A stretch of DNA of 64,000 nucleotides from Pseudobdellovibrionaceae bacterium (GTDB lineage: Bacteria > Bdellovibrionota > Bdellovibrionia > Bdellovibrionales > UBA1609). Positions 6,957 through 28,974 of the stretch are shown here, piece after piece. The notes below the pieces were generated by a model. That model searched no databases. It saw only the letters and a list, made by a program, of their open reading frames with translations, and was not told the DNA's origin. Both the position numbers and the translations under genes were made by a program. Each line of letters starts with the position of its first letter. Position 1 is the first letter of the stretch. The DNA lies in assembly GCA_947444305.1 (NCBI GenBank), contig CANEZP010000003.1:1-64000 (forward strand). Direction: 5' to 3'.

Positions 6957-8125
6957 TATTTTGCTCCTTTTACGGCCGCGACGATCGCCTTTGCCGCGCT
7001 ACCCAGGTCGTCGGCGGGAACGATGTTCAAACCGCTCTCGGCCAATATTTTTTTACCCAATTCAACGTTCGTGCCTTGCAAGCGAACGACGAGCGGAACT
7101 TTCAAACCTAATTCTTTGGTGGCCGCGATCACGCCTTCGGCGATGATGTCGCACTTCATGATACCGCCGAAGATGTTCACCAAGATCCCCTTCACGTTTT
7201 TGTCGGAAAGGATCAGTTTGAACGCGTTAGTCACCTTCTCTTTATTGGCGCCGCCGCCCACGTCGAGGAAGTTTGCGGGATTACCACCGCTAAGCTTGAT
7301 GATATCCATGGTGGCCATCGCCAAGCCGGCGCCGTTGACCAAGCAGCCGATGTTGCCGTCAAGCTTGATGAAGGCGAGATCGAATTTCGAAGCTTCTACT
7401 TCCGTAGGGTCTTCTTCACCGGTATCGCGCATCTCCATGACGTCGGGGTGACGGAACAAGGAGTTGGAGTCGAAATTCAATTTGCAATCGAGCGGCATCA
7501 CCGTGCCGTCGCCGGTTTCAACGAGCGGGTTGATTTCGGCCATGGCGCAATCGTAAGTCGTAAAAACTTTGGCAAGCCCGAGCAAAACTTTAACGGCGTT
7601 GCTCGCCGCTTTGTCTTTGAAGCCCAAGTGGTACGCCATTTGGCGCGCCTGGAAAGCTTGCATGCCGACCGCGGGATCGATGACGACTTTGAAGATCTTT
7701 TCGGGATGCTTCTCGGCCACTTCTTCGATGTCCATGCCGCCCTCGGAAGAGCCCATCATGATGGGACGGCCGTAGTGACGATCGACGAGCATCGCGACGT
7801 AATATTCTTTCTTAATGTCACAACCTTGCTCGATGTACACTTTGCGGACCAAACGCCCTTCGGCACCGGTTTGCGGAGTGACGAGCGTCATGCCTAAGAT
7901 TTTTTCCGACAATGATTTTACTTCGTCGAGTGACTTAGCGACTTTGATCCCGCCGCCTTTACCGCGGCCGCCCGCGTGGACTTGCGCTTTGACAACCCAC
8001 ACGCTGCCGCCGATTTTCTGCGCCGCTTTAACGGCTTCGTCGGGCGTCGAGGCGATTTCGCCCTTCAGCAAGGGAATGTTGAATTTCTTTAGAAGCTCTT
8101 TGGCTTGATACTCATGAATATTCAT
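6956..8125 (-). CDS. sucC: Succinyl-CoA ligase (ADP-forming) beta subunit
   Basis: This 389-residue subunit has an ATP-grasp fold that binds the nucleotide and succinate. The N-terminus [19 protein letters not shown] and the motifs [29 protein letters not shown], and GGGANKEKV are all typical. The ribosome site AGAGGATCC precedes the ATG. It sits upstream of sucD and downstream of mdh and a SleB-like gene, all on the minus strand. Confidence 0.97.
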
Positions 8126-8167
8126 GGATCCTCTCAGGATGGTTAAGGGCTGAAGATAGCAGTTACG

Positions 8168-8905
8168 TTAGCGTCTGTAAAACTCGGCGCAGGGCTTCTG
8201 GCCCTCGATGATTTTAACAAAACCTTTGTTCTTTGTCGGATCCGGATCTTTCGCCCACTCGGGACGAACCGCGCCGCCGAAGTCGGAATAAGGAAAAAAG
8301 ACATTCCGGATTTTAGAATATTTCGGATCGATGCCGGTACGGGTGTATTTATCGAGGATGCGCGCGGCGACTTCTTTGGATTGAAGATAAATCGAATACG
8401 CTTCGATCTTGGATTTCACGTCGGTTAAATATTTCTCGGCCTCGTAGGGGCAGAGGAACATGACGGCAAAGATATTATTGCCCTTGCCGGAAAAGCTCGG
8501 CGTGAATTGCTTGCTCGCGAAGACTTCGTGAAAAATCGCATCCGGCTTAGGATCGTCGCGCTTTGGGCTGTACCGATCGACGCGATTGATGATCATCCAT
8601 CCAATCGCGTCCATCAACGAAACGGCGTCGGCCGCTTCGCACTTTTTCGCCCAGTAACCGGTCGCTAAGGCCTCGGAAAAGATGAGGCGCGAAAGCACCT
8701 CGTGATCCGAGAAATTGGCGGCTTCGGCGGCTTCGCGTGCTTTGGCCTCTTCGTTAGAAGAAGCCGGCTTGCACCTGAGCAACTCCGTCGGTTTTGCCGG
8801 CGGCTGACGGGGGCGCGAACTTTCACTGGGCGCTGCGGGCGAATCGTTTTGCGCGAAAACGCCCGCGGAATTTAGAGCCAGCAGGAGCAACAATGCCCTC
8901 ATCAA
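8168..8905 (-). CDS. Exported SleB/CwlJ-like cell wall hydrolase (tentative)
   Basis: This is a 245-residue protein with a signal peptide (RALLLLLALNSAGVFAQ) and a Pro/Ser-rich linker to about residue 45. The core has LSRLIFSEALATG, AIGWMIINRVDRY, and FHEVFASKQFTPSF. These resemble the order of conserved motifs in the SleB/CwlJ hydrolase_2 family (Glu in the first motif, INRV, then a QF motif). Family assignment is by eye and only moderately sure. The gene begins six bases after the mdh stop and is probably transcribed with mdh and sucCD, an odd neighbour for TCA enzymes. If correct it would cut peptidoglycan in the periplasm. Confidence 0.5.
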   Translation of the reverse strand: MMRALLLLLALNSAGVFAQNDSPAAPSESSRPRQPPAKPTELLRCKPASSNEEAKAREAAEAANFSDHEVLSRLIFSEALATGYWAKKCEAADAVSLMDAIGWMIINRVDRYSPKRDDPKPDAIFHEVFASKQFTPSFSGKGNNIFAVMFLCPYEAEKYLTDVKSKIEAYSIYLQSKEVAARILDKYTRTGIDPKYSKIRNVFFPYSDFGGAVRPEWAKDPDPTKNKGFVKIIEGQKPCAEFYRR

Positions 8906-8911
8906 AAACTC

Positions 8912-9856
8912 CTAAACTTTGAGCTTACCTAATGCTTCCACTAAATCTTGCACCGCTTTAGTTGAGTTTGTTAGGCCTGCGCGCTCCTCGTCATTTAATT
9001 TTACTTCAATAACTTGTTCTAGACCTTTGCCGCCTAGTTTACAGAGCACGCCGATGAAGAGATCTTTGATTCCGTATTCACCTTGCAAGAAAGCCGCGCA
9101 GGGAAGAATGCGGCCTTGATCGCGCAAAATGGCTTCGGCCATTTGCACGGCGCTCGCCGAAGGTGCGTAGTACGCAGAGCCCGTCTTCAAAAGACCGACG
9201 ATCTCGGCGCCGCCCTCGCGGGTACGTTTAACTAAAGCGTCAACGCGCTCTTTGGGCAAAATCTCGAGCAGCGGAACGCCGCCGACCGAACAGTGGCGCG
9301 GCATCGGAACCATCGTGTCGCCGTGGCCGCCGAGCACGAAAGCTTGAACATCTTTAACCGAGCATTTTAATTCTTCGGCGATAAAAGAGCGAAAACGTGC
9401 ACCGTCGAGAACGCCGGCCATGCCTAGGACGCGCTCGCGCGGGAAGTCGAGTTCTTTCAAGGCAACGTAAGCCATCGCATCCAAAGGATTGCTGACGACG
9501 ATGACTACGGAATCGGGTGAATTCTCGCGAACGCCTTTGCAAACATCCTTCATGATCTTGGAGTTGGTACTGAGTAAATCATCGCGGCTCATCCCGGGTT
9601 TACGTGGAATACCCGCGGTGATGATGACGACATCCGAGCCGGCGGTGTCTTTGTAATCCGAGGTGCCCGTGATGCGCGCATCAAACTGCTCAACGGGAGA
9701 AGCTTCGAACAAATCGAGTGCTTTACCTTTAGCCGCGCCGTCGTTGATATCGACGAGAACGACGTCGCCGAGCTCTTTTGCCGCTGCCCAGTGCGCGCAC
9801 GTTGAACCGACAAAGCCCGCGCCAACAACCGTGATTCTCTTCCGAGTGTGTTTCAT
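8912..9856 (-). CDS. mdh: Malate dehydrogenase (LDH-like class)
   Basis: This enzyme of about 314 residues oxidises malate to oxaloacetate with NAD. The Rossmann motif [12 protein letters not shown] is near the N-terminus. The substrate loop [14 protein letters not shown], the VSNPLDAM stretch and the catalytic [12 protein letters not shown] are intact; the Arg in PGMSRDD and the loop sequence favour malate over lactate. A start five codons upstream is possible, but ATG 9856 has AAAGG at the right distance. It is the first gene of a TCA group with sucC and sucD. Confidence 0.95.
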
Positions 9857-16826: not shown

Positions 16827-17015
16827 ATGACGATCGACAAATTAAATATATTGGAAATGCTGGTCGAAGAACTCCTCAAAGAATCGCCCGAGGAAAAAGT
16901 CGTGCGCACCTGCATGAACGAAGCGGGCATCCCCGACACCAAAGACCCCATCGACCGGATCAACAAAGTCCTCCACGCTTTAGAATTCGCCCAGGCGGAT
17001 AAGGAATTGAATTAA
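16827..17015 (+). CDS. Small acidic protein of unknown function
   Basis: This is a 62-residue helical, acidic protein (EMLVEELLKESPEEKVVRTC). Its stop overlaps the start of the next gene (TAATG), which supports it as real and co-translated with the Cys/Met metabolism enzyme. No domain was recognised. Confidence 0.6.
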   Translation: MTIDKLNILEMLVEELLKESPEEKVVRTCMNEAGIPDTKDPIDRINKVLHALEFAQADKELN

Positions 17016-18181
17016 TGAGCTCCGACAACAAAGATCATGGTTTTGAAACGCGCGCGATCCACGCCGGGCAAGAGCCCGACCCCACGACCGGCGCGATCAT
17101 GACTCCTATATATATGACGTCGACCTACGTACAACAATCGCCCGGCGTACATAAAGGTTACGAGTATTCGCGTTCGCACAATCCAACGCGCAAGGCTTAC
17201 GAGAACTGCATCGCTTCGCTCGAGGGCGGCACATTCGGTTACGCCTTTGCCTCCGGGCTTTCGGCGACGACCGTGCTGTTGCAAATGTTCAAAGCCGGCG
17301 ATCATATCTTGGCCGGTGACGACATGTACGGCGGCACCTTCCGATTGTTCGACAAAGTTTATCGCAACAATGGTTTTGAGTTCGGGTACGCCGACCTCAC
17401 CGATCCCGACAATTTCGATAAAGCCGTAAAACCGAATACCAAATTGTTGTGGCTCGAATCGCCGACGAATCCCATGTTGAAACTCGTCGACATCGCCGCG
17501 TTGGTTAAAAAGGCGCACGCTCGCGGAATTCTGGTCGCGGTCGACAATACTTTCATGAGTCCCTACTTCCAGCGCCCGCTCGAACTTGGTGCGGATCTCG
17601 TCGTGCATTCCTCGACCAAATATCTCGGCGGACATAGCGATGTGATCGGCGGCGTGATCGTTGGTCGTGCGCAAGCCTTGAACGAACGTTTATTTTTCCT
17701 GAGCAACGCGATGGGCCCGATTGCCTCCCCGTTCGATTCCTTTTTGGCGATGCGATCCCTTAAAACTTTGGCGATTCGCATGCGTGCGCATCAGGAAAAT
17801 GCGATCGAAGTGGTCAAGTTTCTACGCACCCAATCGGCAAAAATCGAAAAGGTGATTTACCCCGGCATGCCCGAGCATCCCCAACATGAGCTGGCAAAAC
17901 GCCAAATGTCGGGTTTCGGGGGCATGGTTTCTTTTGTCCTAAAGGGCGGAATGACCGAGACCCGCGCTTTTCTCGAAAATGTGCGCGTCTTTTCTTTGGC
18001 GGAAAGCTTAGGCGGCGTCGAATCGTTGGTGAACCACCCGGCGATCATGACCCACGCCTCGGTCCCTGCCGAAACCCGGAAAGTCTTAGGGATTTCGGAT
18101 AGTCTCGTGCGTTTGAGCGTGGGCATCGAAACCGCCCGGGATCTAATCCGTGATCTCGAACAGGCTCTGGCGAAGGTGTAG
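17015..18181 (+). CDS. metB: Cystathionine gamma-synthase/lyase family PLP enzyme
   Basis: This 388-residue enzyme belongs to the Cys/Met metabolism PLP family. The N-terminus GFETRAIHAGQEPDPTTGAI, the YSRSHNPTR motif and the PLP lysine in VHSSTKYLGGHSDVIGG are all intact. ESLGGVESLVNHPAIMTHAS is the C-terminal substrate region. Sequence alone does not clearly separate gamma-synthase (MetB), gamma-lyase and methionine gamma-lyase; the metB symbol is tentative. No other methionine gene is adjacent. Confidence 0.88.
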   Translation: MSSDNKDHGFETRAIHAGQEPDPTTGAIMTPIYMTSTYVQQSPGVHKGYEYSRSHNPTRKAYENCIASLEGGTFGYAFASGLSATTVLLQMFKAGDHILAGDDMYGGTFRLFDKVYRNNGFEFGYADLTDPDNFDKAVKPNTKLLWLESPTNPMLKLVDIAALVKKAHARGILVAVDNTFMSPYFQRPLELGADLVVHSSTKYLGGHSDVIGGVIVGRAQALNERLFFLSNAMGPIASPFDSFLAMRSLKTLAIRMRAHQENAIEVVKFLRTQSAKIEKVIYPGMPEHPQHELAKRQMSGFGGMVSFVLKGGMTETRAFLENVRVFSLAESLGGVESLVNHPAIMTHASVPAETRKVLGISDSLVRLSVGIETARDLIRDLEQALAKV

Positions 18182-18269
18182 GCGGCGCGTTGTTGCGAGC
18201 CCAAGTGCCCGTAAAGTTTGACAGCTTTGAGCATGCACGGCTAAATCCGTAGTTCGATTTCCCACTAGT

Positions 18270-18345
<76 letters not shown>

Positions 18346-18634
18346 AAACCTCTCCCTTTCTATGGTCGCGCTTTGCGCTCCCCAGCTTCGCTTTTGCTAA
18401 TGTTTTTTCGCCTCCGGCGAATGTTCGCCCGAAGGCTCACCTGCGTGCCGGCGCTGCGCTTGGCTTTGCTGGTGGGTGGGCGCTGCGCTTCGCTTGCTTT
18501 GCTCCGCCTTTTTTTCCTGGTTCATTTAAATTTGGATTTCGTTTTTTTGGCTTCTCCGCCTGGATGGCGGAGAAGGGGCGCTCGCATGGATGGATGGGCT
18601 TCGCTGTTTAGGGATTGGCTTTTTTGGAGATGGA

Positions 18635-18650
18635 TTCTGTGCGCACAGAA
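18635..18650. repeat. Dispersed palindrome copy 4
   Basis: Perfect copy of TTCTGTGCGCACAGAA, between tRNA-Phe and the precursor-peptide gene. Confidence 0.85.
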
Positions 18651-18731
18651 ATTTGTTTTTGAGGTTAATAGTTAGATTAATCTTTAGAACTGTCCGCTTT
18701 GCTTTGCTCGATCAGTATTTTCAAAAACGGT

Positions 18732-18747
18732 TTCTGTGCGCACAGAA
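18732..18747. repeat. Dispersed palindrome copy 5
   Basis: Perfect copy of TTCTGTGCGCACAGAA, 97 bases from copy 4. Confidence 0.85.
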
Positions 18748-18946
18748 AACTTGTCCAACTTTTTCATATTTATGCTCCTGCCGCCTTGCCGATCGTTCTA
18801 CACATGCGTCTCTTCGTTTGGAAAGTTGATTCGGGGATTCTTAATTCTAGGAAATTGTTGCTTCTATTCTGTTGAGGCTTATTTGAGGGCGGCATAAATC
18901 GCGCAATTCTTCTTTGCAGATCGTTAACTCAATAAAGGAGAACCCC

Positions 18947-19135
18947 TTGAAAATTCAGGTCTTAAAGAAACAGATGACCAAGAAAGTCATCCAAGCTTCG
19001 GCGAAACCGTCGGCCGTGCGTAATGCGGGTCCCGTGCGTAATGCGGGTCCCGTGCGTAATGCGGGTCCCGTGCGTAATGCGGGTCCCGTGCGTAATGCGG
19101 GTCCCGTGCGTAATGCCGGTCCGGTTCGTAACTAA
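18947..19135 (+). CDS. Candidate microcin C-like precursor peptide with six VRNAGP repeats
   Basis: TTG 18947 is preceded by AAAGGAG at ideal spacing and gives a 62-residue peptide. Residues 1-23 are a basic Lys/Gln-rich leader (MKIQVLKKQMTKKVIQASAK, then PSA). Six exact VRNAGP units follow (24-59), and the peptide ends VRN. It can equally be read as one VRN followed by six AGPVRN hexapeptides, each ending in Asn. Microcin C precursors (MccA) end in an Asn whose carboxylate is adenylated by the E1-like enzyme MccB, and an MccB-like enzyme, an exporter, a RimL-like acetyltransferase and a TldD-like protease lie directly downstream. No Cys, Ser-rich or lanthipeptide-type core is present. An alternative ATG start at 18974 has a poorer ribosome site. 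The function as a peptide-antibiotic precursor is inferred. Confidence 0.7.
   Translation: MKIQVLKKQMTKKVIQASAKPSAVRNAGPVRNAGPVRNAGPVRNAGPVRNAGPVRNAGPVRN
19016..19132 (+). repeat. 18-base in-frame tandem repeat in the precursor gene
   Basis: Five identical copies of GTGCGTAATGCGGGTCCC (19016-19105) are followed by a sixth with two synonymous changes (19106-19123) and a half copy ending in the stop codon. Lack of synonymous drift among the first five suggests recent expansion or homogenisation. Confidence 0.95.
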
Positions 19136-19151
19136 ACTTTTCTTAATGAGG

Positions 19152-19179
19152 CCGGGGCGTTTTTCGCGTCCCGGTTTTT
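19152..19179 (+). terminator. Terminator/attenuator between precursor and downstream genes
   Basis: CCGGGGCG and CGTCCCGG form an eight-pair stem (one G-T) with a seven-base loop, followed by five T residues. It lies 17 bases after the precursor stop and four bases before the exporter ATG. It would make a short abundant precursor transcript with partial read-through, as is known for mccA in E. coli. Confidence 0.8.
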
Positions 19180-19183
19180 AACT

Positions 19184-20413
19184 ATGAAATCGTTCACTTC
19201 CGCCCAAGTTTTGTTATTGCTGGATGGCTTCTACGAAGGTGGCCGGATGTTTGTCGGCGCCACCTCCGTCATCTACTTGCTCGCCAACGGAGCGACGCTG
19301 GGTCAGATCGCTTATCTCAAGCTCATTCAAGGTAGTGTTTTCCTAATTGCGGAAGTTCCCACCGGCACGTTTGCCGATCTGCACGGACGACGGAAAAGTT
19401 TGATCATCTCCACGCTCTTGGCGCTCGCCGGCTTTGCACTCTACTTTCTAGGAAACGGCTTCGAAGTTTTTGCGATTGCCGAGATTCTTACCGCGCTCTC
19501 CTTATGTTTTTGGTCGGGAGCCTACGAAGCATACTGCGTAGAGTACGCAGACCTAAATTCCGCTCCCGCGAAACTAGATCGTTTCTTTCACCTCAATCAA
19601 GCCACGGTCAGCGTCGCCGTTCTCATCTGTGGATTACTCGGAAGCGCCGTCGCCGAGTATAATCTTGGATACGCTTACTTGGCGGGTATTTTCACATTCG
19701 CGGCGGCGCTCGGCATTCTGGCGATGCTACCCGCAGATGAGGTCATCCCCCAGAGCGCAAAATCATTCGGAGCACGGGTGGTCCAACTCGGACGATCCTC
19801 GAAAGAGGCCGTTATTGAATGTCTTAAAAGTCCTGCGCTCATCCCATTGTTCGTCGCGAGCATCGCTGTGCAGTTTTCTATTCAACCGCTGCTTCATTAC
19901 TGGCAGCCCTTCTTTGAATCAGTAAGTCCGGGCTTACCCGTTTCTCAATTGGGCGTCGTCTTCACTAGTTACACGGCCCTAGGGGCGGTTCTCGGTCTTG
20001 TTTATTCTCGATTTACGGATCTAAAGTTTTTCCGAAGTTACGTCGGCACGATTGCCCTTTTTGGATTATTCAGCGTGCTCTATTTATTTTTGGGCCAGGC
20101 ATCAGGTTGGTGGCCGGCGTTGATCTTGTTCGCCGGGACGCAAGGGGCCTTAACGCTTGCCCGTACTTCGCTCATGGCAAGAATCAATGAACAGTCATCG
20201 AGTGAGAATCGGGCTCGAGTCCTAAGTTCCGTCAGTCTGTTTTCCCGATTCGGCATGATGGGCGCACTTTTTATCATTCCCGCAATTGTACGAACGCAAG
20301 AAATCGGGCCGCAACACACCGCCCAGATTTATAAAACGTTCTCGTACTTTTCGGTGGCGGCGGTCGGCCTCATTTTACTTAGCATGGTTCTACGCCGAAA
20401 ATTTAGAAAATGA
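19184..20413 (+). CDS. MFS exporter (MccC-like position in cluster)
   Basis: This is a 409-residue permease with about 12 membrane helices. The MFS loop motif between helices 2 and 3 is visible as GTFADLHGRRKS. Microcin C clusters use an MFS exporter, MccC, for export and self-protection; position right after the precursor suggests the same job here. Substrate is inferred. No good ribosome site is seen between the terminator and ATG, so translation may be weak. The stop overlaps the next ATG by four bases (ATGA). Confidence 0.85.
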   Translation: MKSFTSAQVLLLLDGFYEGGRMFVGATSVIYLLANGATLGQIAYLKLIQGSVFLIAEVPTGTFADLHGRRKSLIISTLLALAGFALYFLGNGFEVFAIAEILTALSLCFWSGAYEAYCVEYADLNSAPAKLDRFFHLNQATVSVAVLICGLLGSAVAEYNLGYAYLAGIFTFAAALGILAMLPADEVIPQSAKSFGARVVQLGRSSKEAVIECLKSPALIPLFVASIAVQFSIQPLLHYWQPFFESVSPGLPVSQLGVVFTSYTALGAVLGLVYSRFTDLKFFRSYVGTIALFGLFSVLYLFLGQASGWWPALILFAGTQGALTLARTSLMARINEQSSSENRARVLSSVSLFSRFGMMGALFIIPAIVRTQEIGPQHTAQIYKTFSYFSVAAVGLILLSMVLRRKFRK

Positions 20414-20832
20414 GAGCCTGGCCGCGCCGATATTCTTTAGCCGCAATTGCTTTCTTCGCTTTCGCGGCGATTCAGCTTACGAGTTCGGTTTCAAGTTTAT
20501 CCTTTTATCCGTTTAGCCCCTATCGCATGTTCTCAAAGAATTGGAAAAGCGGGATCGAGATGGAACAGATCTTGGTTAAATCGGGGAACCTTTCCTATCG
20601 CCCCTGGGACCTGATGAAAATCCCGTTCTTCCAAGCTAACTCCATCGCCTTTACGACCTTTCTTGACGATGCACCGTTCGAACAGCGTGAAATTGTCTGT
20701 TCACTCTACCGGAAGAACATCGCCGGTTCGGAGGAGATTAAAATCATCCAGCAACATGTTCGATATTCTGATGCGAACGGAATGATGAACGGCGAAATTA
20801 TTTTCGAGAAGGAAGTTTGGGCGTGTCGCTAA
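20410..20832 (+). CDS. Membrane-anchored protein of unknown function (HTTM companion)
   Basis: This is a 140-residue protein with one N-terminal hydrophobic segment (YSLAAIAFFAFAAIQLTSSV), either anchor or signal, then the stretch FYPFSPYRMFSKNW. The rest is a soluble domain without recognised motifs. It is coupled to the MFS gene by an ATGA overlap and to the HTTM gene by a ten-base overlap. Small proteins with a YPFxxYxMF-like stretch often sit beside HTTM proteins (general recollection, not verified). Role in the cluster is unknown. Confidence 0.65.
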   Translation: MRAWPRRYSLAAIAFFAFAAIQLTSSVSSLSFYPFSPYRMFSKNWKSGIEMEQILVKSGNLSYRPWDLMKIPFFQANSIAFTTFLDDAPFEQREIVCSLYRKNIAGSEEIKIIQQHVRYSDANGMMNGEIIFEKEVWACR

Positions 20833-21680
20833 AACTTATTCACGAATTCCTTTTCCGTGCCGGGGCCGAGCGTTTTGCCCGCGCGATTGTCGTCGCTCTG
20901 CCGCTCTACGCCGTGTTTCGGGTCTGGCTTTACGATTGGGCCAGCTATTCTAAGCTCGCGGTCTTCCTTTACCGGCCGCCCGGATTTCTCGCTTTGCCCT
21001 TCCCCGCGCTTTCAACCCTGATCGCCCTCCAAATGTTGGCCACCATCCTAGGTTTAGGCGTCGCGACCGGTCGGTTGGGTGGGAAGACGCTGTTCCTCTT
21101 CGCTTGGCTAAATCTTCTTTTTGATTACTGGCACAATGGATTCGGCTTTATCGAAGTGCAAATTCATTATGTATGGTTTTTATTTATTTTAAGTCTTTGC
21201 CCGAACCCAGGAAGAAGATCAGGCCCCGTGGCCTCTAGCTTCGCTTTTCGGGGAATGGAATTGATCGTGGTCTTAGCCTACTTCCAATCCGGGATAGCTA
21301 AGTTGATTCAATCCGGCATTTCCTGGGCTTCTGATGGGACAACACTCCAAATCGCTTTGCTCCGGCAAGGTCTACAGATCGGCGAATGGCTTGCGCAGTG
21401 GCCTACCCCCATTCGGTGCTTGTCGTGGATAACGTTAATCTTCGAACTTTCGTTTTTGTTCTACTATGCGTTTCCCCGTCTGCGATGGATTTGGCTTACC
21501 ACCTCGGTCGGCTTCCATCTCGGAACTTGGTTATTTCTAGGAATAGATTTTAGTCATCTGTGGATTTTCGCGGCGACTGTTCTCATTGCCGCGCCTGAAT
21601 TAGTGAACCTGCCACGCTCGCGACCTTTGATTCTAAAATGGCCTGAAGTTTGTAAGTATCTAACAACGAGGGCTTGTTAA
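20823..21680 (+). CDS. HTTM-domain (vitamin K carboxylase-like) membrane protein
   Basis: This protein of about 285 residues has several membrane helices. FLFAWLNLLFDYWHNGFGF, IHYVWFLFILSLCPN and AYFQSGIAKLIQSGISWASD match the order of conserved parts in HTTM proteins, the membrane domain shared with vitamin K-dependent gamma-carboxylase; the Lys in SGIAKL aligns by eye with the active-site-region Lys. It lacks the carboxylase lumenal domain. GTG 20823 is preferred to TTG 20817 because GAAGGAAG is better spaced. What it modifies or transports is unknown; being inside the cluster suggests action on the peptide product. Confidence 0.7.
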   Translation: MSLKLIHEFLFRAGAERFARAIVVALPLYAVFRVWLYDWASYSKLAVFLYRPPGFLALPFPALSTLIALQMLATILGLGVATGRLGGKTLFLFAWLNLLFDYWHNGFGFIEVQIHYVWFLFILSLCPNPGRRSGPVASSFAFRGMELIVVLAYFQSGIAKLIQSGISWASDGTTLQIALLRQGLQIGEWLAQWPTPIRCLSWITLIFELSFLFYYAFPRLRWIWLTTSVGFHLGTWLFLGIDFSHLWIFAATVLIAAPELVNLPRSRPLILKWPEVCKYLTTRAC

Positions 21681-21774
21681 GATGTCGATCGCCGTACTGA
21701 TTATTGCGCTACTGTTAAATTCTTTAAGTCCAAGCTACGGATTTCCCACTCAAATTAATAACTCAGGAGAAAAA

Positions 21775-22272
21775 ATGGAAAACGGCATCATCACTCTTCG
21801 GCCACTTCGGTCCACGGATGTAGACGCATTTCTTACTTGGGGGAGTGATCCTGAAGTTACGCAGAGTTTGTTTTGGGATCCGCATACCGATCGTGAAGCG
21901 GCTCGCGAGTTTCTCAAAAAGGTCGCCGAACCACATCCCTGGTTCATGGCGATCTGCTTAGACGGCGAACCCGTCGGTGCGATTACTCTAGATAAGGGAA
22001 GCGGCCGCGCCGGCAACCGGGCCGAACTGGGATACGTGTTGGCTAAAAAACATTGGGGAAAAGGGATTGTCACCCAAGCCACTCGTATGGCACTTCTCCG
22101 CGGCTTTGAAGATTTGGGTGTGGAGCGAATCGAGGCTTGGGTTGATCCCGAGAACAAAGGCTCGATCAAGGTTTTAGAAAGTTCGGATATGAAATGCGAA
22201 GGATTACTAAAAAAATACGTTGTTCACCGCGGACAAACCAAAGACAGGTTAATTTATGCAAAAACAAAATAG
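21775..22272 (+). CDS. RimL-like GNAT acetyltransferase (MccE C-domain-like, self-immunity candidate)
   Basis: This is a 165-residue GNAT protein. ITLRPLRSTDVDAFLTWGSD starts the fold; the acetyl-CoA site is KHWGKGIVTQATRMALL; VERIEAWVDPENKGSIKVLE completes it. ATG 21775 has CAGGAG in front and is chosen; a frame open to 21682 adds a signal-like stretch unlikely in this family. In microcin C systems the RimL-like C-terminal domain of MccE acetylates the processed toxic aminoacyl nucleotide and protects the producer. The same role is proposed here by context. It overlaps the next gene by 17 bases. Confidence 0.82.
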   Translation: MENGIITLRPLRSTDVDAFLTWGSDPEVTQSLFWDPHTDREAAREFLKKVAEPHPWFMAICLDGEPVGAITLDKGSGRAGNRAELGYVLAKKHWGKGIVTQATRMALLRGFEDLGVERIEAWVDPENKGSIKVLESSDMKCEGLLKKYVVHRGQTKDRLIYAKTK

Positions 22273-23317
22273 TGCAGAAGTTCAATACCAAATCCCCCGC
22301 TACCTAGGTTTGCGCGAAATCAAAAAACGCAAAGGAGCGTATGAAGTCTCGCTCGGATTTGCCCTGAAAAATCGAGTTGATCTGGTGCTCGATCAACCGG
22401 GTCTAGATTTACTCGTCGCCTGCCAAGAACCTATCTCAATCGCGCAACTTCGAAGAAAACTCAAAGCGAAAAACCGCGAGGTTCAAGACTGTCTCGATGT
22501 CTTATTAAAGGCCAAGGCCATCGTCGAAATTCCGACCGTGCCCGAAGATTTTACTAGATATGACCGCCACCTTTTATTTTACCAGCTCAGCGGCTTAGAT
22601 CCTGTCGAAGCCCAGCGAAAGATTTCTCAATCAACGATCGCGCTCATCGGGGTCGGCGGAATCGGAAACTGGGCTTCGCTCGCCGCGATCGGAGCCGGGT
22701 TCAAAGAAATCCGCCTGATCGATTTCGACACGATTGAACTGAGCAACCTGACCCGCCAAGTGTTGTTTAAAGAGCGTGATCTCGGAAAAACCAAACTGAA
22801 GGTCGCGGGCGAAGAACTTACGGCCAGAAACAGTAAGACTAAAATTGTCCCGTTCGATATGAAAGTTTCGTCGGCAAAACAGCTTTCCAAAATCTTGAAG
22901 GGGGTCGACTTCGTCATTTTATCCGCGGACCGTCCCGAGGAGATTCATGACTGGGTCGATGACGTTTGCATTAAGCAGAAAATTCCGTATCTGAATCTCG
23001 GCTACCGGGATCACGAAGGGGTGATCGGTCCCCTGACGGTTGCCAAAAAAACTTCCTGCTACCAATGTTTCAAGCCGGCGCCGGTTAAGAACTCGCCCGC
23101 GAAGAGAAAGGCCGGCGCCCTAAGACCTAATTACCAAGCACCTTCGTTTGGACCACTCAACGCTATCGTATCGGCGCTCGGGGTTAACGAGATGATTAAG
23201 TATATCGTCGGCATGGAGGCGCAATCGTTTGCGACCGAATTAGCCGTTGACCCCCATACCTTGGAAGTCACTCGCACTCCGTACGGGCGAGACCCTCATT
23301 GCTGGCACTGCGGCTAA
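22256..23317 (+). CDS. MccB-like E1/ThiF adenylating enzyme with N-terminal peptide-binding region
   Basis: This is a 353-residue enzyme, close to the length of MccB. Residues about 14-95 look like a winged-helix PqqD-like/RRE clamp (LDLLVACQEPISIAQLRRKL). The adenylation fold follows: GVGGIG at 132-137, LIDFDTIELSNLTRQVLF at about 154-171, and a four-Cys Zn site (C268, C271, C349, C352). MccB adenylates the C-terminal Asn of the MccA peptide and forms a phosphoramidate. A TOMM-type role is less likely because there is no YcaO gene, and there is no ubiquitin-like ThiS/MoaD partner. Overlap with the acetyltransferase gene and a four-base gap to the TldD-like gene indicate one operon. Confidence 0.85.
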   Translation: MQKQNSAEVQYQIPRYLGLREIKKRKGAYEVSLGFALKNRVDLVLDQPGLDLLVACQEPISIAQLRRKLKAKNREVQDCLDVLLKAKAIVEIPTVPEDFTRYDRHLLFYQLSGLDPVEAQRKISQSTIALIGVGGIGNWASLAAIGAGFKEIRLIDFDTIELSNLTRQVLFKERDLGKTKLKVAGEELTARNSKTKIVPFDMKVSSAKQLSKILKGVDFVILSADRPEEIHDWVDDVCIKQKIPYLNLGYRDHEGVIGPLTVAKKTSCYQCFKPAPVKNSPAKRKAGALRPNYQAPSFGPLNAIVSALGVNEMIKYIVGMEAQSFATELAVDPHTLEVTRTPYGRDPHCWHCG

Positions 23318-23320
23318 ACA

Positions 23321-24391
23321 ATGCTAAAGCGGCGGCAAGAATCTTTTGAACATGAACTGCGCTGGGTGAGGGGCGTGCGGGCCCTTGCCCGCACCAACGC
23401 CACCGCCGGAACGTGGAGCCTGAGCTCCGCGGGAAAAGTATCCCAACAAACCGAGCGCGCCGTTTGCCCCAACGAAGTAGGCCGTTTACCTAAGCTTAAT
23501 CATAGATTGATTGCGCGATTTGATTCCGTTCGTTTGCTACGCCGGCAAGACATGACACGAATCGATGGCCGGCAGGTTAACCGAGAGCAGATCTACATCG
23601 AAGCGACGCTAGCCCCATTCGGCACCTGGAGCACGGTCATGATGACGGACGTTCGAGATATAGGGTTACTCCTCGAAGGCTGGTTGCAAGAACAGCTCGC
23701 CTACTGCACGCTCCCGGAAAAAATGGATGAGGTAAATTGCTCGGTCATCGAATTCAGTCCGACGGCGTTGGGATATCTGTTACACGAATCGCTCGGTCAT
23801 CGTCTCGAGAGCGATGATTTCAAAAAGCCTTTTGAGTTCAGTTCTTTTACACCCGTCAATTTCGACGTTTGGGATACTCCGGGATTGAAGGGCACCCCAG
23901 GATTTTGTCCCTTTGATGATATGGGGACGCAGGGCAGCCCCGTTCGTTTGCTCGAAGGTAAATCCGGTCGCCAGCAATTATTAACGGCCAAGAGCGGAAA
24001 CCTCCGGGCGGTTCACCATGGCTGGCATCCGATTATTCGGCAGCGCACGTTGGAAGTTCATGCGCGAAAAACATCGAGCGTCCCCGTGGCGGCGAAAATC
24101 TTCATCGATGAAATCGGTTCCGGGACTTTCAGAAACGAAAGTGCGTACCTCGAAACATCCAGACAGTATTACGTAGACTCCCGCGGTCGCCGGGTCCGCA
24201 TGCCGCGTTTACAGATCGAAGTCCGGTTGGATTTTGTTTGTGGACTAAATGTTTTTGGCGATGCTCACTACGTACATCCGGGCGGAGGCTGCGACAAGGG
24301 CTCTCAGCGCGGTCTCGGAATCTCTTTCAAAAGCCCGAGCGCCTGGGCCGATCTTGATTCAAACCCGATTGAAATCCACGCGTTGACGTAA
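23321..24391 (+). CDS. TldD-like metalloprotease (shortened, cluster-encoded)
   Basis: This is a 356-residue protein. It keeps the TldD metal motif as LLHESLGHRLESD (HExxxH, residues 155-160) and the C-terminal metal-ligand region GGGCDKGSQRGLGISFKSP (Cys324). E. coli TldD is about 480 residues, so part of the N-terminal domain is missing. TldD/TldE degrades unfolded peptides and matures some RiPPs, including microcin B17 and a Yersinia peptide-cytidine antibiotic of the microcin C class. No TldE-like second subunit is nearby. Here it may cut the repeated precursor, for example at Asn-Ala junctions; this is inference. It is the last gene of the operon. Confidence 0.82.
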   Translation: MLKRRQESFEHELRWVRGVRALARTNATAGTWSLSSAGKVSQQTERAVCPNEVGRLPKLNHRLIARFDSVRLLRRQDMTRIDGRQVNREQIYIEATLAPFGTWSTVMMTDVRDIGLLLEGWLQEQLAYCTLPEKMDEVNCSVIEFSPTALGYLLHESLGHRLESDDFKKPFEFSSFTPVNFDVWDTPGLKGTPGFCPFDDMGTQGSPVRLLEGKSGRQQLLTAKSGNLRAVHHGWHPIIRQRTLEVHARKTSSVPVAAKIFIDEIGSGTFRNESAYLETSRQYYVDSRGRRVRMPRLQIEVRLDFVCGLNVFGDAHYVHPGGGCDKGSQRGLGISFKSPSAWADLDSNPIEIHALT

Positions 24392-24441
24392 TCAGCGAAG
24401 TTTCGCGCCGGTGATTTTTTCGACACTTATTGCGTCTGACT

Positions 24442-24720
24442 TTATCGGAGTCCGCCGAGAATTCTCTTTTCAAACAATGCGGCAAGTATCGCGCCGCCGA
24501 TTGCGAAAGAAAAAACAACGGTTAACCGCCATCTGTTCACCTCGTTCATACATCGATAGTCCGGTACATCGCCTATAAATCTAGGGCACTCAGCCAAGAA
24601 TCGCTCGGTAGCCTCGTGCCCGAAAAACCGGATAACCAGGGCCCCGATCGCGGTTGCCAATGCGGCCCCTAAAAATATAACTCCGAATCTTTTCAATCGA
24701 TTCTTCACCTTTACTGCCAA
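24442..24720 (-). CDS. Small two-helix membrane protein of unknown function
   Basis: This is a 92-residue protein with two hydrophobic segments (GVIFLGAALATAIGALVIRF and FSFAIGGAILAALF) separated by a short loop containing two Cys. Its start overlaps the stop of the upstream VWA gene by ten bases, which supports it as real. No family was recognised. Confidence 0.55.
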   Translation of the reverse strand: MAVKVKNRLKRFGVIFLGAALATAIGALVIRFFGHEATERFLAECPRFIGDVPDYRCMNEVNRWRLTVVFSFAIGGAILAALFEKRILGGLR

Positions 24721-25688
24721 TACTTAGGGACGAATTTGATTTCGAGTTCGGTGCCCGCGGGTTGGCTCGCAAAGTCGAAAAGGTCGCCGATGACGACGGA
24801 CTTAGTGGTCTCGTCGTAAATCCAGCCGCCGCGTAGGTCGCCGCCCGCCAGGTTCTTGCCGCCGAAATGCACTTCGATGGTGCTGATTACGGGTTCGGTC
24901 GGAAGTTGGATAGTTCGCGTGACTGTATTCACCAGCTTCTCGGCGATCGAGAGCATCGACGCACGCCGGTCGGCGGCGCAAAGATTAAATATTTGCCCGC
25001 CCGTTTCGTTGATCAAGGTCTCGAGCTTAACGCCTGATTTGTGAATGTCTTGATACGGGCATGAAGCGTCGGCACGAGAAGGCAAGAACGCGTGAAGTGA
25101 AAAACCCGCCTGGCTTTTTAGATCATGCAGAAATTCTTTAAACTCTTGCGAAGTTTGTTTGGAGTGATCTTCGGAGTCGGTCACAAACATAACGGCTAAA
25201 TGAGCGCTGGGCCGCAAGAAGCCGGCGTTCACGCCGGAAAGCAGAGGCTCCGATAAACCCATCATCACCGAATTGAAATGCTCGCCGACGGAACTGCCTT
25301 GGATGCCGACCATCATGGCTTGCGATAAATCCTTATTAAAAGTGGCCGAGCTTGAGTCGAGAATTTTGCGAAAGCGGCCGTTATCTAGGTACGGGTTTGT
25401 CCGATTCAATCCCGTCGTCGTAACGACGGCCGCGTGAAGTGAAAGTCCGCGCGCCGCAATGTCGGCCGCGAGTATTGAAACGTTGCTCGCCATCGTTCGT
25501 TGGTGGGGATCCATGCCGCCGGAATCGTCCATGACGAACAATACGTCCGTCAGACTCTCGGCGCCGGGTTGCACGATCACTTTGATGTAGCCGGTGGGCA
25601 TCTCGGGATAAACGAGGCTTTTAATCGATAAGCCCCGCGCTTGGCCGCAGGCCGTAATCATAAGAATAGCAAGAGCTGCGGTTCGCAT
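24711..25688 (-). CDS. Exported von Willebrand factor A-domain protein
   Basis: This is a 325-residue protein with an N-terminal signal; ITAC could be a lipobox (Cys14). The VWA domain starts at LTDVLFVMDDSGGMDPHQ. The metal-site motif is DxSxG instead of DxSxS, while TDSEDHS later gives the expected Asp. Loss of the second Ser may weaken metal binding. The C-terminal part is beta-rich. It is likely periplasmic or surface-exposed and binds a protein partner. A small membrane protein gene overlaps its end. Confidence 0.7.
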   Translation of the reverse strand: MRTAALAILMITACGQARGLSIKSLVYPEMPTGYIKVIVQPGAESLTDVLFVMDDSGGMDPHQRTMASNVSILAADIAARGLSLHAAVVTTTGLNRTNPYLDNGRFRKILDSSSATFNKDLSQAMMVGIQGSSVGEHFNSVMMGLSEPLLSGVNAGFLRPSAHLAVMFVTDSEDHSKQTSQEFKEFLHDLKSQAGFSLHAFLPSRADASCPYQDIHKSGVKLETLINETGGQIFNLCAADRRASMLSIAEKLVNTVTRTIQLPTEPVISTIEVHFGGKNLAGGDLRGGWIYDETTKSVVIGDLFDFASQPAGTELEIKFVPKYWQ

Positions 25689-25747
25689 CGGTGTCTCCGT
25701 AGGTGATAATTCGCCTACGGTAGTACGCGTGACGCCAAAAACAAGTA

Positions 25748-26092
25748 CTAAGCTCTGTTTTTAGAGCCGCACTTAAAATGAATGTACGTATTTTCAGCTT
25801 TAGATTGGTTAGAGTCCGAGCGGGTCACGTTGCCCGAGGTCTTGCTGTACGAGCTGACGTTGCCGGTAAACTCCGACATGTTATTCTCGGCGGTGATTCG
25901 GGCGCGTGCGGGCGAGCAGTATTCGTTCGCCAACTCGATCGCCTTTGCACGGTTCTTCTCTTTGAAGAAGAGTTCGTTCGTGTACTTTACGGTTCCACCT
26001 TTTTGGCCTTCGTAGTTTTTAGTAACGACCTGGGCGCAGCCGGCAAGGTTGAGAGTGAGTAAAGCTAACGGCAAAAGGTTGCGAAGATTCAT
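25748..26092 (-). CDS. Small lipoprotein of unknown function
   Basis: This 114-residue protein has a signal and the lipobox LAGC (Cys19). The mature part is polar and rich in Asn, Ser and Thr, with two further Cys. A ribosome site AAGGAG precedes the ATG. No domain was recognised. Confidence 0.65.
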   Translation of the reverse strand: MNLRNLLPLALLTLNLAGCAQVVTKNYEGQKGGTVKYTNELFFKEKNRAKAIELANEYCSPARARITAENNMSEFTGNVSSYSKTSGNVTRSDSNQSKAENTYIHFKCGSKNRA

Positions 26093-26330
26093 GGGTTCTC
26101 CTTAAAACAGGTTTAACCCTTTAAAAGCAAAGACCACACCGCCTACCGGGCGAAAGGCGGCGACGTAATCGAATTAATAGAGATGGGAGACGCTGGTGAC
26201 AAATTTCGTTAGGCAGTTGTCGGATAGCCAACGGCGCATTTTGAGAAGGCCTCGAAATGAACAAATCGGGGTCGCCGGCCAATATGGGATTTTTAAAATT
26301 GAATGAGTGGGGTCGCCGCAGCGGATTTGC

Positions 26331-26954
26331 TCATTTCGACGCCTCTTGCGGAGACGGCCCGCGCAGGCGTGAAATTTGGCGGTCGTGCACGCGCGAAAGA
26401 CACGCGTGCGCCGCGACCGCCCCGAGCAAAGCCAGGAACATATCCCATTGCGTGTCCCACACGTCGCCTTGGGTGCCGAGGAAAGCGTCGGCCGCCGAAC
26501 CGGTCAACAAAGCCGTACCCCATTCGATGAATTCATAAATGGCGCTGAACGATAAGCAAAACGAAATCGCGACGAGCGTGCGCAAAGCGTTGGACGCGAT
26601 CGCGTTCTTGCGGATTAACCATTCGCGGAACAAAAGCGCCGGCACGAAGCCTTGCGCGAAATGCCCGAGTCGGTCGTAGTGATTGCGCGTGAAGCCGAAC
26701 CAGTCCTGCACGTAAAAACCAAAAGGTACTTCCGCGTAAGTGTATTTGCCGCCGACGCACAAGATGACGGCGTGAATACAAAGTAAAACGAAGAGCAAAG
26801 CGGTGATTTTATATTTACGGTCAATGAAAATCGCAACGGGTAAGCCAACGAGTACGGGCGCGACTTCGAGAAACCAGGTCAGCCGATCCTTAGGCGCAAT
26901 GCCCGACCAGATGAGAACGGCGACCACCGGCAAGAGCAGGGCGTACTTGCTCAT
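26331..26954 (-). CDS. DUF2238/YjdF-type membrane protein
   Basis: This is a 207-residue protein with about six membrane helices. NHYDRLGHFAQGFVPALLFRE, SAIYEFIEWGTALLTG and FLGTQGDVWDTQWDMFLALLGA are the conserved motifs of the DUF2238 (YjdF) family of unknown function. It overlaps the DedA gene by four bases, so the two form an operon. Confidence 0.85.
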   Translation of the reverse strand: MSKYALLLPVVAVLIWSGIAPKDRLTWFLEVAPVLVGLPVAIFIDRKYKITALLFVLLCIHAVILCVGGKYTYAEVPFGFYVQDWFGFTRNHYDRLGHFAQGFVPALLFREWLIRKNAIASNALRTLVAISFCLSFSAIYEFIEWGTALLTGSAADAFLGTQGDVWDTQWDMFLALLGAVAAHACLSRVHDRQISRLRGPSPQEASK

Positions 26955-27616
26955 ACCTTGCGAGATTTTTTTCGTTCGCGCCAGAACTCGAAAACAATCG
27001 GCAGTACGGATACGACGATGATGCCCAAGATGACGTATTGAAAGTTCGATTTAACGGTTGGCAATTGCCCGAAGAAATAGCCGAGGCCCAAGAATGAACC
27101 CACCCACACGGCACCGCCGACGATGTTGTAGATGAAGAATACGGAATAATTCATCGCGCCCATGCCGGCCACGAACGGCGCGTAGGTGCGGATGATCGGA
27201 ACGAAACGCGCGAGGATAATCGTCTTGCCGCCGTACTTGGCGTAAAATTCGTTCGTCTTGGCGAGATGCTTGCGGTTGAGCCAGCGGCCTTCTTCGCGCC
27301 GGAAAATGCGCGGGCCGAGCCATTTCCCGACGTGGTAATTCACCATGTCTCCAAAGAATGCGGCCAAGGTGAGAACCATGAACATGCTCGGCAAATCTAA
27401 ACCGGGAGTGTGATAAGCCAGCAAGGCGCCGACGGCGAACAGCAGGGAATCACCCGGCAGGAAGGGCGTTACGACCAATCCTGTCTCGGCGAAGATGATG
27501 AGCGCGATGATGGCGTAAAGCCCACGGCCGTACTCAATCGACCAAAGCTCGAGCTGCATGGGCGCATTCTGAAACAACAAGCTAAGTTGCGTAAACAACT
27601 CGTTAAATAATTCCAT
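26951..27616 (-). CDS. DedA-family membrane protein
   Basis: This is a 221-residue inner-membrane protein. VVTPFLPGDSLLFAVGAL, FFGDMVNYHVGKWLG and the Arg-containing stretch ARFVPIIRTYAPFVAGMGAM define DedA. DedA proteins act as lipid carriers for undecaprenyl phosphate or phosphatidylethanolamine. ATG 27616 is taken as start; a TTG eight codons upstream would overlap the protease gene. The gene follows the protease gene closely and is coupled to the DUF2238 gene. Confidence 0.9.
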   Translation of the reverse strand: MELFNELFTQLSLLFQNAPMQLELWSIEYGRGLYAIIALIIFAETGLVVTPFLPGDSLLFAVGALLAYHTPGLDLPSMFMVLTLAAFFGDMVNYHVGKWLGPRIFRREEGRWLNRKHLAKTNEFYAKYGGKTIILARFVPIIRTYAPFVAGMGAMNYSVFFIYNIVGGAVWVGSFLGLGYFFGQLPTVKSNFQYVILGIIVVSVLPIVFEFWRERKKSRKV

Positions 27617-27627
27617 GTTTAGAAAAG

Positions 27628-28974
27628 TTAGCCCGGACAAACGGGAAGATCAATGTGAAAGCGGCTGCCCATTTTTTTGCGCGGACCGAGATGGGGTGAA
27701 AAATAAACTCCCGCGGGCTCCGGCCATGCGATCTCCAGTTCATGCGCCCCGCCCGGGCTTACCGATTTAACGCCGGCGTTCACCAAAACTTGGGACATCG
27801 AAGCGATTCTAGGCTGAGCCCATTCGTCGAACTCAATCTTTACTTGTTCAATGATGAAGGGAACCGACGCGGGCCGTTCCTTAGATACCTTGCATTCGGG
27901 AATATGAATCACTTCGAAGCGGGCTTGATCCGAAGAGCGGAGTTGGTAGTCGTACGGGCGCAGACGAAAATTGACCGAAGGTGATACGCGGCGTGCTTTC
28001 AGCTTCGCCATCTCGCTCGCCTGGGCTGCTTCGAAGCGTTGGGTAATGACGGCCTCGCCGGTGACGGTGCACGCGACGGGCTTGGCGCCGGGGAAATCAA
28101 AACAACGCACGTTCGTCGAAACCGAGGACCAATGTTTTTCGTAGATGAATAAGTCCCGCCTCAATTTTTCGCGCACGAGGGCCGCACGTTGTTGGGGGTC
28201 AACGCCCCCGACTTGAACGGCTTGTACGTCTTCACTGCCCGGCGCGAACATCGGCGCACCCGAGGTGCCGGGTTCGAGACGGCACCCGTACGACTGAATC
28301 ATGTCGGGGCTCTCGCTCATCTCGAAAGGAAATTCGGCGCCGTGACGGCGGATAAAGCAATCTTGTGATCGAATCGTCAGCTTCGTTTCCGAAGGACTAT
28401 TCATGATCGCGAACACGGTTAACTTGCTGAAGATTATTTGCGGACCCGACGCCAGCCGTAGCGGAGCAAGACCCCTGACCGCTTTGTTCAGCGTGAACAT
28501 GGCAACGTCGGGTTTCCCGCTGCTAAATTTCTCGCCGCGCGCATCGGGCGTGAATCGTTTAAACGGGACGGCGGTAACCGAACGAACTTCGGCCGAGCCG
28601 TTAATCTTTTGCGTGATGAAATAGCCTTTCGCTTTACCGAAGCCGTCGCAGTGGCCGTTGCTCACGATCGTGTCACCTGAAACAAGAAATGCCGTGCAGC
28701 GCCGAGTGGGGATCATGCCCGCGACCGGTTCGCCGGCAAAGATCAAGGCGCCGACTTGCAACGGGCAGCGCTCGGCCGCGCAACTCACTTCGACGGAGGA
28801 CGGTGACCAATCCATTTCGACGAAAGTGGTTTCAGGTTTGAAAGTGGGCCTCGTGTTTTCCTGAGGGCTACCGAAGGTCTGCGAGCCGTTTTTGGCCGCG
28901 GAGGTCCCTTTCGGCTGTGCGCAGGCCGCGAGAACAAAAATCAGAATGAGGCTAAGAAAGAAACTCGCGCGCAT
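27628..28974 (-). CDS. Trypsin-like serine protease lipoprotein
   Basis: This is a 448-residue lipoprotein with lipobox LAAC (Cys18). The catalytic triad can be read: His in VSNGHCDG, Asp in KPDVAMF, Ser in LEPGTSGAPMF. About 180 residues of unrecognised, beta-rich C-terminal domain follow. It is likely anchored in the outer membrane facing the periplasm or exterior. Secreted proteases of this type are numerous in predatory Bdellovibrionota (general knowledge). Confidence 0.8.
   Translation of the reverse strand: MRASFFLSLILIFVLAACAQPKGTSAAKNGSQTFGSPQENTRPTFKPETTFVEMDWSPSSVEVSCAAERCPLQVGALIFAGEPVAGMIPTRRCTAFLVSGDTIVSNGHCDGFGKAKGYFITQKINGSAEVRSVTAVPFKRFTPDARGEKFSSGKPDVAMFTLNKAVRGLAPLRLASGPQIIFSKLTVFAIMNSPSETKLTIRSQDCFIRRHGAEFPFEMSESPDMIQSYGCRLEPGTSGAPMFAPGSEDVQAVQVGGVDPQQRAALVREKLRRDLFIYEKHWSSVSTNVRCFDFPGAKPVACTVTGEAVITQRFEAAQASEMAKLKARRVSPSVNFRLRPYDYQLRSSDQARFEVIHIPECKVSKERPASVPFIIEQVKIEFDEWAQPRIASMSQVLVNAGVKSVSPGGAHELEIAWPEPAGVYFSPHLGPRKKMGSRFHIDLPVCPG

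Follow-up and report, generated by a model that had tools for sequence, protein, structure and literature searches.

A candidate microcin C-like cluster with a tandem-repeat precursor and its own TldD-like protease in the order of Bdellovibrio

Can a microcin C be made from a precursor that carries several peptides rather than one? The question is raised by seven genes at positions 18947-24391 of a 64,000-nucleotide stretch of DNA (here called the window) from a Pseudobdellovibrionaceae bacterium (GenBank assembly GCA_947444305.1, contig CANEZP010000003.1). Read in order, these encode a precursor peptide, an exporter of the major facilitator superfamily (MFS), a small membrane protein, an HTTM/SdpB-like protein, a GNAT acetyltransferase, an E1 adenylating enzyme that resembles MccB, and a TldD-like metalloprotease. 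We favor the view that this is a microcin C-like system in which a multi-core precursor is cut by the cluster's own TldD, tagged by the MccB-like E1, and exported by the MFS protein. To this we assign a probability of about 0.55.

Described microcin C precursors have 7-8 residues, with a small group of 17-56 residues, and that of E. coli microcin C is described as having to stay short, longer ones lowering production at several steps (PMC6495379). The window has something else. A first-pass annotation, made from the sequence, had described a seven-gene, single-strand block with overlaps, and this holds. All seven open reading frames (ORFs) lie on the + strand, neighboring genes overlap by 4, 16 and 17 bases, and other spacings are 1 and 3 bases. 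The sole sizeable intergenic gap, of 48 bases, lies between the precursor gene and the MFS gene.

A precursor built of repeats

The precursor gene (18947..19135, + strand) has 62 codons. It starts with TTG, with AAGGAG at 18935-18940, six bases 5' of the start; translation might instead begin at an internal ATG, at 18974. Its product is (M)KIQVLKKQMTKKVIQASAKPSAVRN, then six copies of AGPVRN, then a stop, which makes Asn the C-terminal residue; the leader itself ends AVRN. The units are encoded by six tandem 18-base repeats (19025..19132, + strand), for which Tandem Repeats Finder gave a period of 18, 6.6 copies and a 97% match. Units 1-5 are identical in DNA, while unit 6 carries four changes, all synonymous. 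The earlier description, a short peptide gene ending in Asn, was thus right about the Asn and wrong about the shortness, and it missed the apparently multi-core nature of the array.

The array is open in at least one other frame, but the ribosome site and the pattern of third-position changes belong only to the AGPVRN frame, and the alternative frame was rejected. Downstream, in the gap before the exporter gene, a strong hairpin with a T-run behind it (19148..19178, + strand; -21.6 kcal/mol, z -3.8) looks like a terminator or attenuator. The terminator pattern scan did not list this hairpin, and the promoter scan found nothing near the precursor. Such placement resembles that of known clusters that make more precursor than enzyme message.

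A second cluster with different repeats

A second genome of the same order (G087, locus L095) carries, in a row, a precursor, an MFS protein (45%), an E1 (50%) and a TldD. The E1 there and that of Bdellovibrio sp. HCB-162 are 97% identical. The precursor here reads MLIKVKATATKKTTKRN, then AIKVRN, AIKVRN, AIRVRN, AIRVRN. The two precursors therefore have in common their unit length, their VRN ending and their overall plan, and differ in the sequence of the unit. A GC hairpin with a T-run, read by eye, likewise stands 3' of the second precursor, in the same place.

A crude count over the four units of this second precursor gives 25 synonymous versus 4 nonsynonymous differences (pS 0.91, pN 0.05), the comparisons being pairwise and hence non-independent. 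Six of the eight variable positions are third positions; the other two lie in the K/R codon. This argues against an origin of the repeat in pure slippage, and the units seem to be maintained individually by selection.

The MFS-E1-TldD core is shared by both clusters. Because the search of 14 kb in G087 gave no match to the HTTM pair or to the GNAT, these look like accessory genes.

The adenylating enzyme and its relatives

The E1 (22256..23317, + strand) has MccB as its best match, both by sequence and by predicted fold, over residues 9-353. This includes the N-terminal peptide clamp (RRE), as the first-pass annotation had claimed. The E1 also retains MccB-type ATP-site residues, such as R167, K180 and D225 (roles from the comparison of EnfB with MccB in PMC12250964, numbering correspondence presumed). 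A housekeeping MoeB or ThiF was rejected as a candidate: MoeB/ThiF NCBIfam models gave 113.8, 107.2 and 104 bits against cutoffs of 449, 266 and 275, MccB is nearer by sequence and fold, and the tree sets the window enzyme apart.

The tree is a quick one, with SH-aLRT support only, of 94 of the 145 gathered sequences; the E1 alignment used 34 of 211 matches, among the 120 of the 211 that were listed. An 18-row clade of heptapeptide-type enzymes, which holds E. coli MccB (support 100), excludes the window E1. The window enzyme sits in a separate 28-row clade (98), the fork that joins it to the heptapeptide clade having a support of only 93, and apart from a 9-row group of outgroup type (100). 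Two long branches with MoeB-type source names (P0104 and P0113) fall on the window side.

A plasmid search returned 29 records (27 Escherichia, 2 Salmonella) with E1 identities of 34-35%, and a contig scan of genomes kept 80 loci, none of them more than 40% identical to the window E1. Among 108 Polyangiaceae genomes, one had an E1, a different one. Viral contigs gave one MccB-like match (30%) and 76 weaker E1s, and PHROG 19840 also matches the window E1. An IMG/VR contig (L099) encodes a 351-residue MccB-like E1 that falls inside the heptapeptide clade.

One signal points elsewhere. TIGR03882, a model for TOMM leader-binding proteins, scores 38.8 on residues 245-353 of the window E1, against a cutoff of 36.9, and is the only one of 25 listed NCBIfam models to pass. 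It scores 41.8 on the E1 of the second repeat cluster, 38.6 on P0007 and, below cutoff, 29.0 on E. coli MccB; at 1e-5 it is not listed for the L097 E1 or for P0041. NCBI names relatives "TOMM precursor leader peptide-binding protein." The first-pass annotation had named clustering with MoeB/ThiF or with TOMM enzymes as what would count against it. The former was not found; for TOMM enzymes, the model score is a mild warning. Taken at face value, it would make this a TOMM-type (azole/azoline) cluster, the E1 serving as leader-binding partner of a YcaO enzyme. Profile searches found no YcaO among the seven cluster proteins, the AGPVRN units have no Cys, Ser or Thr, and the ATP-site residues are those of MccB. 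We rejected this candidate as very improbable.

A more serious alternative keeps the activation of the terminal Asn and changes what follows. Relatives of MccB also make imides, thiolactones and amides (PMC12250964); EnfB, GrcB and PaaA (PMC12250964), and likewise IndF (PMC12150305), are MccB-like with other chemistry. The window E1, with its distinct clade and its TOMM-type model, could in the same way form a succinimide, an amide or a macrocycle. The product would then be a ribosomally synthesized and post-translationally modified peptide (RiPP) without a nucleotide, possibly a signal. Against this stand the C-terminal Asn that every MccA precursor in one survey carries (PMC6495379), the RN that ends both repeat precursors, an MFS exporter that in this class is common only to MccB clusters, and relatives of the same family that carry MccF-, MccD- and MccE-like genes. 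We consider such an outcome unlikely.

Asn-ending peptides before other E1 genes

A scan that reached as far as 700 bases upstream and used a loose ribosome-site pattern was run on 23 E1 genes, and Asn-ending heptapeptides were found at 12 of the loci: MISSGSN, MDHIGFN, MLKLGGN, MISIASN, MDHSMNN, MIAAVRN, MISVSSN, MNSVVRN, MNTTPRN, MNFDHHN, MNSTARN and MRTGNAN. Ten lie within 200 bases of the E1. Of the other two, MISSGSN stands 345 bases upstream of an E1 call that is truncated, and MLKLGGN falls within the E1 gene as called, 47 bases past its start. Four of the twelve end in RN. The length of the AGPVRN unit is that of a microcin C heptapeptide without its Met, and IAAVRN, NSVVRN and NSTARN are hexapeptides shaped like AGPVRN and AIKVRN.

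Chance was rejected as the source of the Asn ending. The control took 628 mechanical ORF starts on the + strand of loci L006-L085, outside bases 6500-9500, within 200 bases upstream and with the same loose pattern. It gave two Asn-ending heptapeptides, both of them E1-linked ones already listed, whose E1s lie beyond the excluded range; the comparable count for E1 genes at 200 bases is 10 of 23.

The repeats might, of course, be something other than products. They could be recognition sites that dock several copies of a leader motif on the E1 clamp, the real core being short and C-terminal. The E1 does have a peptide-clamp domain, and repeated recognition sequences occur in other RiPPs. Every unit, however, shares its C-terminal RN with the final core, and heptapeptide MccAs of the same ending have no leader at all. 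We regard recognition sites as improbable.

Some E1 loci have other arrangements. Long Asn-ending ORFs precede the E1 genes of L020 (64 residues) and L096 (91 residues), with starts that by eye look like signal peptides. Both loci (L096 984-4547, - strand, in genome G034; L020 6238-11466, in Sorangium) combine the long candidate precursor with an MccF-like peptidase and an HTTM pair, and are possibly a secreted-precursor branch of microcin C. L098 (1593-4998, genome G036) has an E1, an MccD-like methyltransferase, an MccE-like decarboxylase and a small HTTM companion; no Asn-ending small ORF was found upstream there. In a Dactylosporangium metagenome-assembled genome (L007 6245-7927), an ORF that by eye resembles aspartyl-tRNA synthetase stands directly 5' of an E1-methyltransferase fusion, an arrangement that would fit target-copy immunity.

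The protease within the cluster

The TldD-like gene (23321..24391, + strand) encodes 356 residues and belongs to a small family whose members are 28-50% identical to the window protein. H155, E156, H160, E163, D165, C324 and K326 are invariant in 11 of 11 aligned sequences, forming an HExxxH zinc site, an E/D pair and a C-x-K. Their equivalents in E. coli TldD (H262, E263, H267, E270, D272, C454 and K456) are zinc ligands, the acid-base catalyst and residues that tether a clamp (PMC5810440). The predicted model (mean confidence, pLDDT, 86.2) best matches E. coli TldD (5nj5_A, E 3.8e-16, TM 0.71 by query and 0.55 by target, rmsd 9.3). Every one of its 16 structural matches at E<=0.001 is a TldD, TldE or PmbA. 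Sequence profiles are less generous: PF19289 scores 19.5-20.2 bits, below its cutoff of 22, and searches of the PDB by sequence, with the protein or its profile, returned no TldD. The earlier assignment as a TldD-like protease thus agrees with the catalytic residues and the predicted fold, at a sequence score below threshold.

Since two full-strength TldD/TldE genes lie elsewhere in the genome, the cluster gene is an extra copy. Among 98 loci, TldD queries match only the window and the G087 locus. Five of the nine non-self TldD matches lie on contigs equal in size to contigs with an E1 match (7998 candidates scored), which suggests, from contig size alone, an E1-TldD linkage on further contigs. 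A TldD within a RiPP cluster is not new as such, because pearlin clusters can encode TldD/E-like proteins; the TldD/E that serve klebsazolicin and the microcin C of Yersinia are encoded outside those clusters (PMC10885120).

What would this protease do? Known TldD/E act as an N-terminal "pencil sharpener" (PMC10885120), and such trimming would destroy the inner units. In the strongest rival of our proposal, the last Asn only is tagged, the TldD trims the N-terminus to about 11-13 residues (two units, giving a AGPVRNAGPVRN-nucleotide), and the inner repeats are a tail or spacer. The 42-residue MccA of Yersinia ends as an 11-residue product (PMC6495379), and on microcin B17 the pencil sharpener halts with 13 residues left ahead of the first heterocycle (PMC10885120). 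Further, what such E1 enzymes activate is a free carboxylate, and until a cut is made only the last unit offers a C-terminal Asn that is free. The inner units of the second precursor, however, seem to matter, because their amino acids are kept despite many synonymous changes, and the unit has the length of a microcin C heptapeptide less its Met. We hold this trimming to a single product to be unlikely, if somewhat less so than a different bond at the terminal Asn.

Exporter and acetyltransferase

The MFS exporter (19184..20413, + strand; PF07690, 1.7e-15) is 22% identical to E. coli MccC (9e-11). Three of the 143 class genomes, one of them its own, have matches to it at E<=1e-20, each next to an MccB-like E1. 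This bears out the MccC role first given to it.

The GNAT (21682..22272, + strand) has an alternative start, an ATG at 21775 behind AGGAG, and this is probably the true one. It is RimL-like, as first described (PF13302, 5.6e-28). The immunity role proposed with that label fares less well, the match to the C-terminal immunity domain of MccE being weak (34% over 90 residues, E=2e-7). The GNATs of the MNSTARN, MNSVVRN and MNTTPRN clusters match one another, and the window GNAT matched none of them. An immunity or a tailoring enzyme is possible.

A recurrent membrane pair

The small membrane protein (20410..20832, + strand; motif YPFSPYRMFS) and the HTTM protein (20817..21680, + strand, starting at TTG 20817 or GTG 20823) had at first been taken as additions unfamiliar in such clusters. 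They are not unique to this one. The HTTM label itself comes from a weak match to the SdpB family (TIGR04033, 18 bits at E=0.0017, the cutoff being 178.4) and from alignment with relatives, there being no Pfam match; the small protein, SdpA-like by position only, has no match in Pfam, NCBIfam or PHROGs.

Within the class (143 genomes), the nearest HTTM relative (2.7e-14; the next, 5.1e-9) lies in the MccB cluster of G034. The other genes there are an Asn-ending ORF, an MccB-like E1, one for a small membrane protein and one for an S66 peptidase, which has 36% identity with E. coli MccF. In Sorangium (L020), an E1, a methyltransferase, an MccF-like peptidase (38%), a small protein and an HTTM protein occur together. 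G036 has an E1, an MccD-like methyltransferase (36%), an MccE-like decarboxylase (28%) and a small protein, after which the contig ends. The small proteins of these three loci are weak relatives of that in the window (E 9e-5, 3e-4 and 0.004 for L096, L020 and L098, in a small set). Since the pair is found with an MccB-like E1 in G034 and L020, and the small protein in G036, it seems to be a module that MccB clusters use repeatedly, with MccF-, MccD- and MccE-like partners that point to microcin C chemistry. By analogy with SdpAB, we would guess at membrane-side tailoring or export. No paper joining "microcin C" with "HTTM" turned up in the literature searched.

A proposed pathway and what weighs against it

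How, then, might the system work? Under our proposal, the leader would dock on the E1 clamp and the terminal Asn would be adenylated by the E1 in the manner of MccB, presumably with formation of the isoaspartyl-amide N-P bond. The TldD-like enzyme would cut between units, presumably at Asn/Ala. Each cut would free a hexapeptide-nucleotide and expose a new C-terminal Asn on the clamp-held precursor, and cutting and tagging may alternate from the C-terminus. The MFS protein would export the products, the GNAT might give immunity, and the HTTM pair might tailor the peptide or aid export. In the target cell, peptidases would release the isoaspartyl-nucleotide, which blocks aspartyl-tRNA synthetase in the known case (PMC12250964), a Trojan-horse inhibitor like known microcins C. 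In its fullest form, six or seven peptide-nucleotides would be dispensed from the C-terminus by E1 and TldD alternating on the held precursor, the SdpAB-like pair being a new module. That fuller version is tentative, and we give it rather less than an even chance.

Several points weigh against the proposal. Some have been met above: the E1 stands outside the heptapeptide clade, it passes a TOMM-type cutoff, its relatives are chemically diverse, known TldD/E trim from the other end, and one free Asn is present at the outset. The tree has several long branches and includes no validated ThiF, MoeB, PaaA or TOMM enzyme. Only two repeat precursors were found, those of the window and of G087, and a homology search with both found nothing at E<=10; the synonymous counts come from six units in the window precursor and four in that of G087. 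Seven of the 23 E1 loci (L006, L007, L008, L011, L024, L095 and L098) have no Asn-ending small ORF within 700 bases upstream, although in L095 the MFS gene intervenes between precursor and E1. The window cluster has no TldE, and no MccF, HIT or aspartyl-tRNA synthetase gene was seen in it. A GNAT match is missing from L095, and the further E1-TldD linkages are read from contig sizes. What the small proteins have in common is a P..PY.MF-type motif (PFSSYNMF in G036); they are otherwise weakly alike, and a loose scan for that motif also matched seven unrelated loci (L052, L123, L124, L130, L131, L160 and L166).

On balance, the observation first reported was right and its microcin C-like interpretation mostly so, the changes being an E1 in a separate clade and a precursor that appears to be multi-core.

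The genomic site

The cluster lies in a variable part of the genome and was probably acquired. A tRNA-Phe (GAA) gene (18270..18345, + strand) ends 601 bases before the precursor start. The gene to the left (17015-18181) and a DedA-like gene to the right (26951-27640) are kept in two genomes of the same genus, G001 and G003; the left gene was not found in G002 at 1e-100. The interval between them (window 18182-26950; L204 and L205 in the others) measures 8.8 kb here, 5.5 kb in G001, where it carries other genes, including two-component and FIST genes, and about 0.7 kb in G003. The tRNA-Phe gene is present at the site in G001, in the same orientation as in the window, and in G003, in the opposite one. 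The GC content of the cluster is 51.2%, versus 53.9% for the window.

A further observation concerns a perfect palindrome, TTCTGTGCGCACAGAA, at 18635..18650 with a second copy at 18732-18747, which is common to a family of HNH genes. It has 14 exact sites genome-wide; the window has 5 matches with at most two mismatches, against 0.01 expected. The palindrome and the HNH gene are found in the window at 4338-5306 (- strand), 4562, 5543 and 5927, and at 18635 and 18732, and elsewhere at L206-L209. In five places, one copy lies within and one upstream of a gene for an HNH-domain protein, 944-1089 bases apart, and these proteins are 63-70% alike. With a site of its own, this gene resembles a selfish or homing-type one present in several copies. 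The two lone sites stand immediately before the microcin-like cluster.

Significance and comparison with known systems

If the proposal is correct, a multi-core precursor with its own protease would be another answer to the short-precursor constraint and would let one gene encode many warheads. It would place a TldD inside a microcin C-like cluster, versus outside in the Yersinia case (PMC10885120), would add a membrane pair seen repeatedly in the company of MccF-, MccD- and MccE-like genes, and would put microcin C-like systems in the order of Bdellovibrio. In literature searched outside subscription papers, no report of such systems in that order was found. No such tandem-precursor system was found either, though a repeat precursor might stand in Table S1 of PMC6495379. 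What is new here is a tandem precursor accompanied by its own protease, together with the membrane pair that recurs.

One of the closest known systems is E. coli microcin C (MccABCDE-F, plasmid NC_010257). Both have an MccB-like E1 with a clamp, an MFS gene in the cluster and an Asn-ending precursor, and the window GNAT is weakly MccE-like. The precursor there is MRTGNAN, whereas here it is a 62-codon tandem array. The window cluster also has a TldD-like protease, the HTTM pair and an E1 of another clade, and is without MccD, the MccE decarboxylase and MccF. Another is the classical heptapeptide cluster of G051, in the same order (MNSTARN-MccB-MFS-GNAT). It shares the MFS (33%), an E1, an RN-ending peptide and a GNAT, but has one heptapeptide, no TldD match and a GNAT of another group.

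The microcins C of Yersinia pseudotuberculosis and Bacillus amyloliquefaciens share a long Asn-ending precursor and, in Yersinia, a TldD-type protease (PMC6495379, PMC12250964, PMC10885120). As described there, each has one product (of 11 residues in Yersinia), and TldD/E lies outside the cluster, while the window has repeats and a TldD within. TldD/TldE themselves (MEROPS M103) have the same fold, as predicted, and the HExxxH...E.D...C.K residues; the window protein is 356 residues long, scores below the Pfam cutoff and has no TldE beside it.

Two further systems share single features. Pearlins (for example, the ammosamide cluster) have an in-cluster TldD/E-like protease and a scaffold peptide that serves again after cleavage at its C-terminus (PMC10885120), but there single amino acids are added to the scaffold, whereas here an MccB-like E1 accompanies ribosomal repeats. 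The sporulation-delaying pair SdpA/SdpB likewise has a small membrane protein directly 5' of its SdpB, as the window has one 5' of a protein weakly like that family. Unlike that pair, the window has no SdpC-like precursor in view, a match far below the family cutoff and, as its neighbor, an MccB-like E1.

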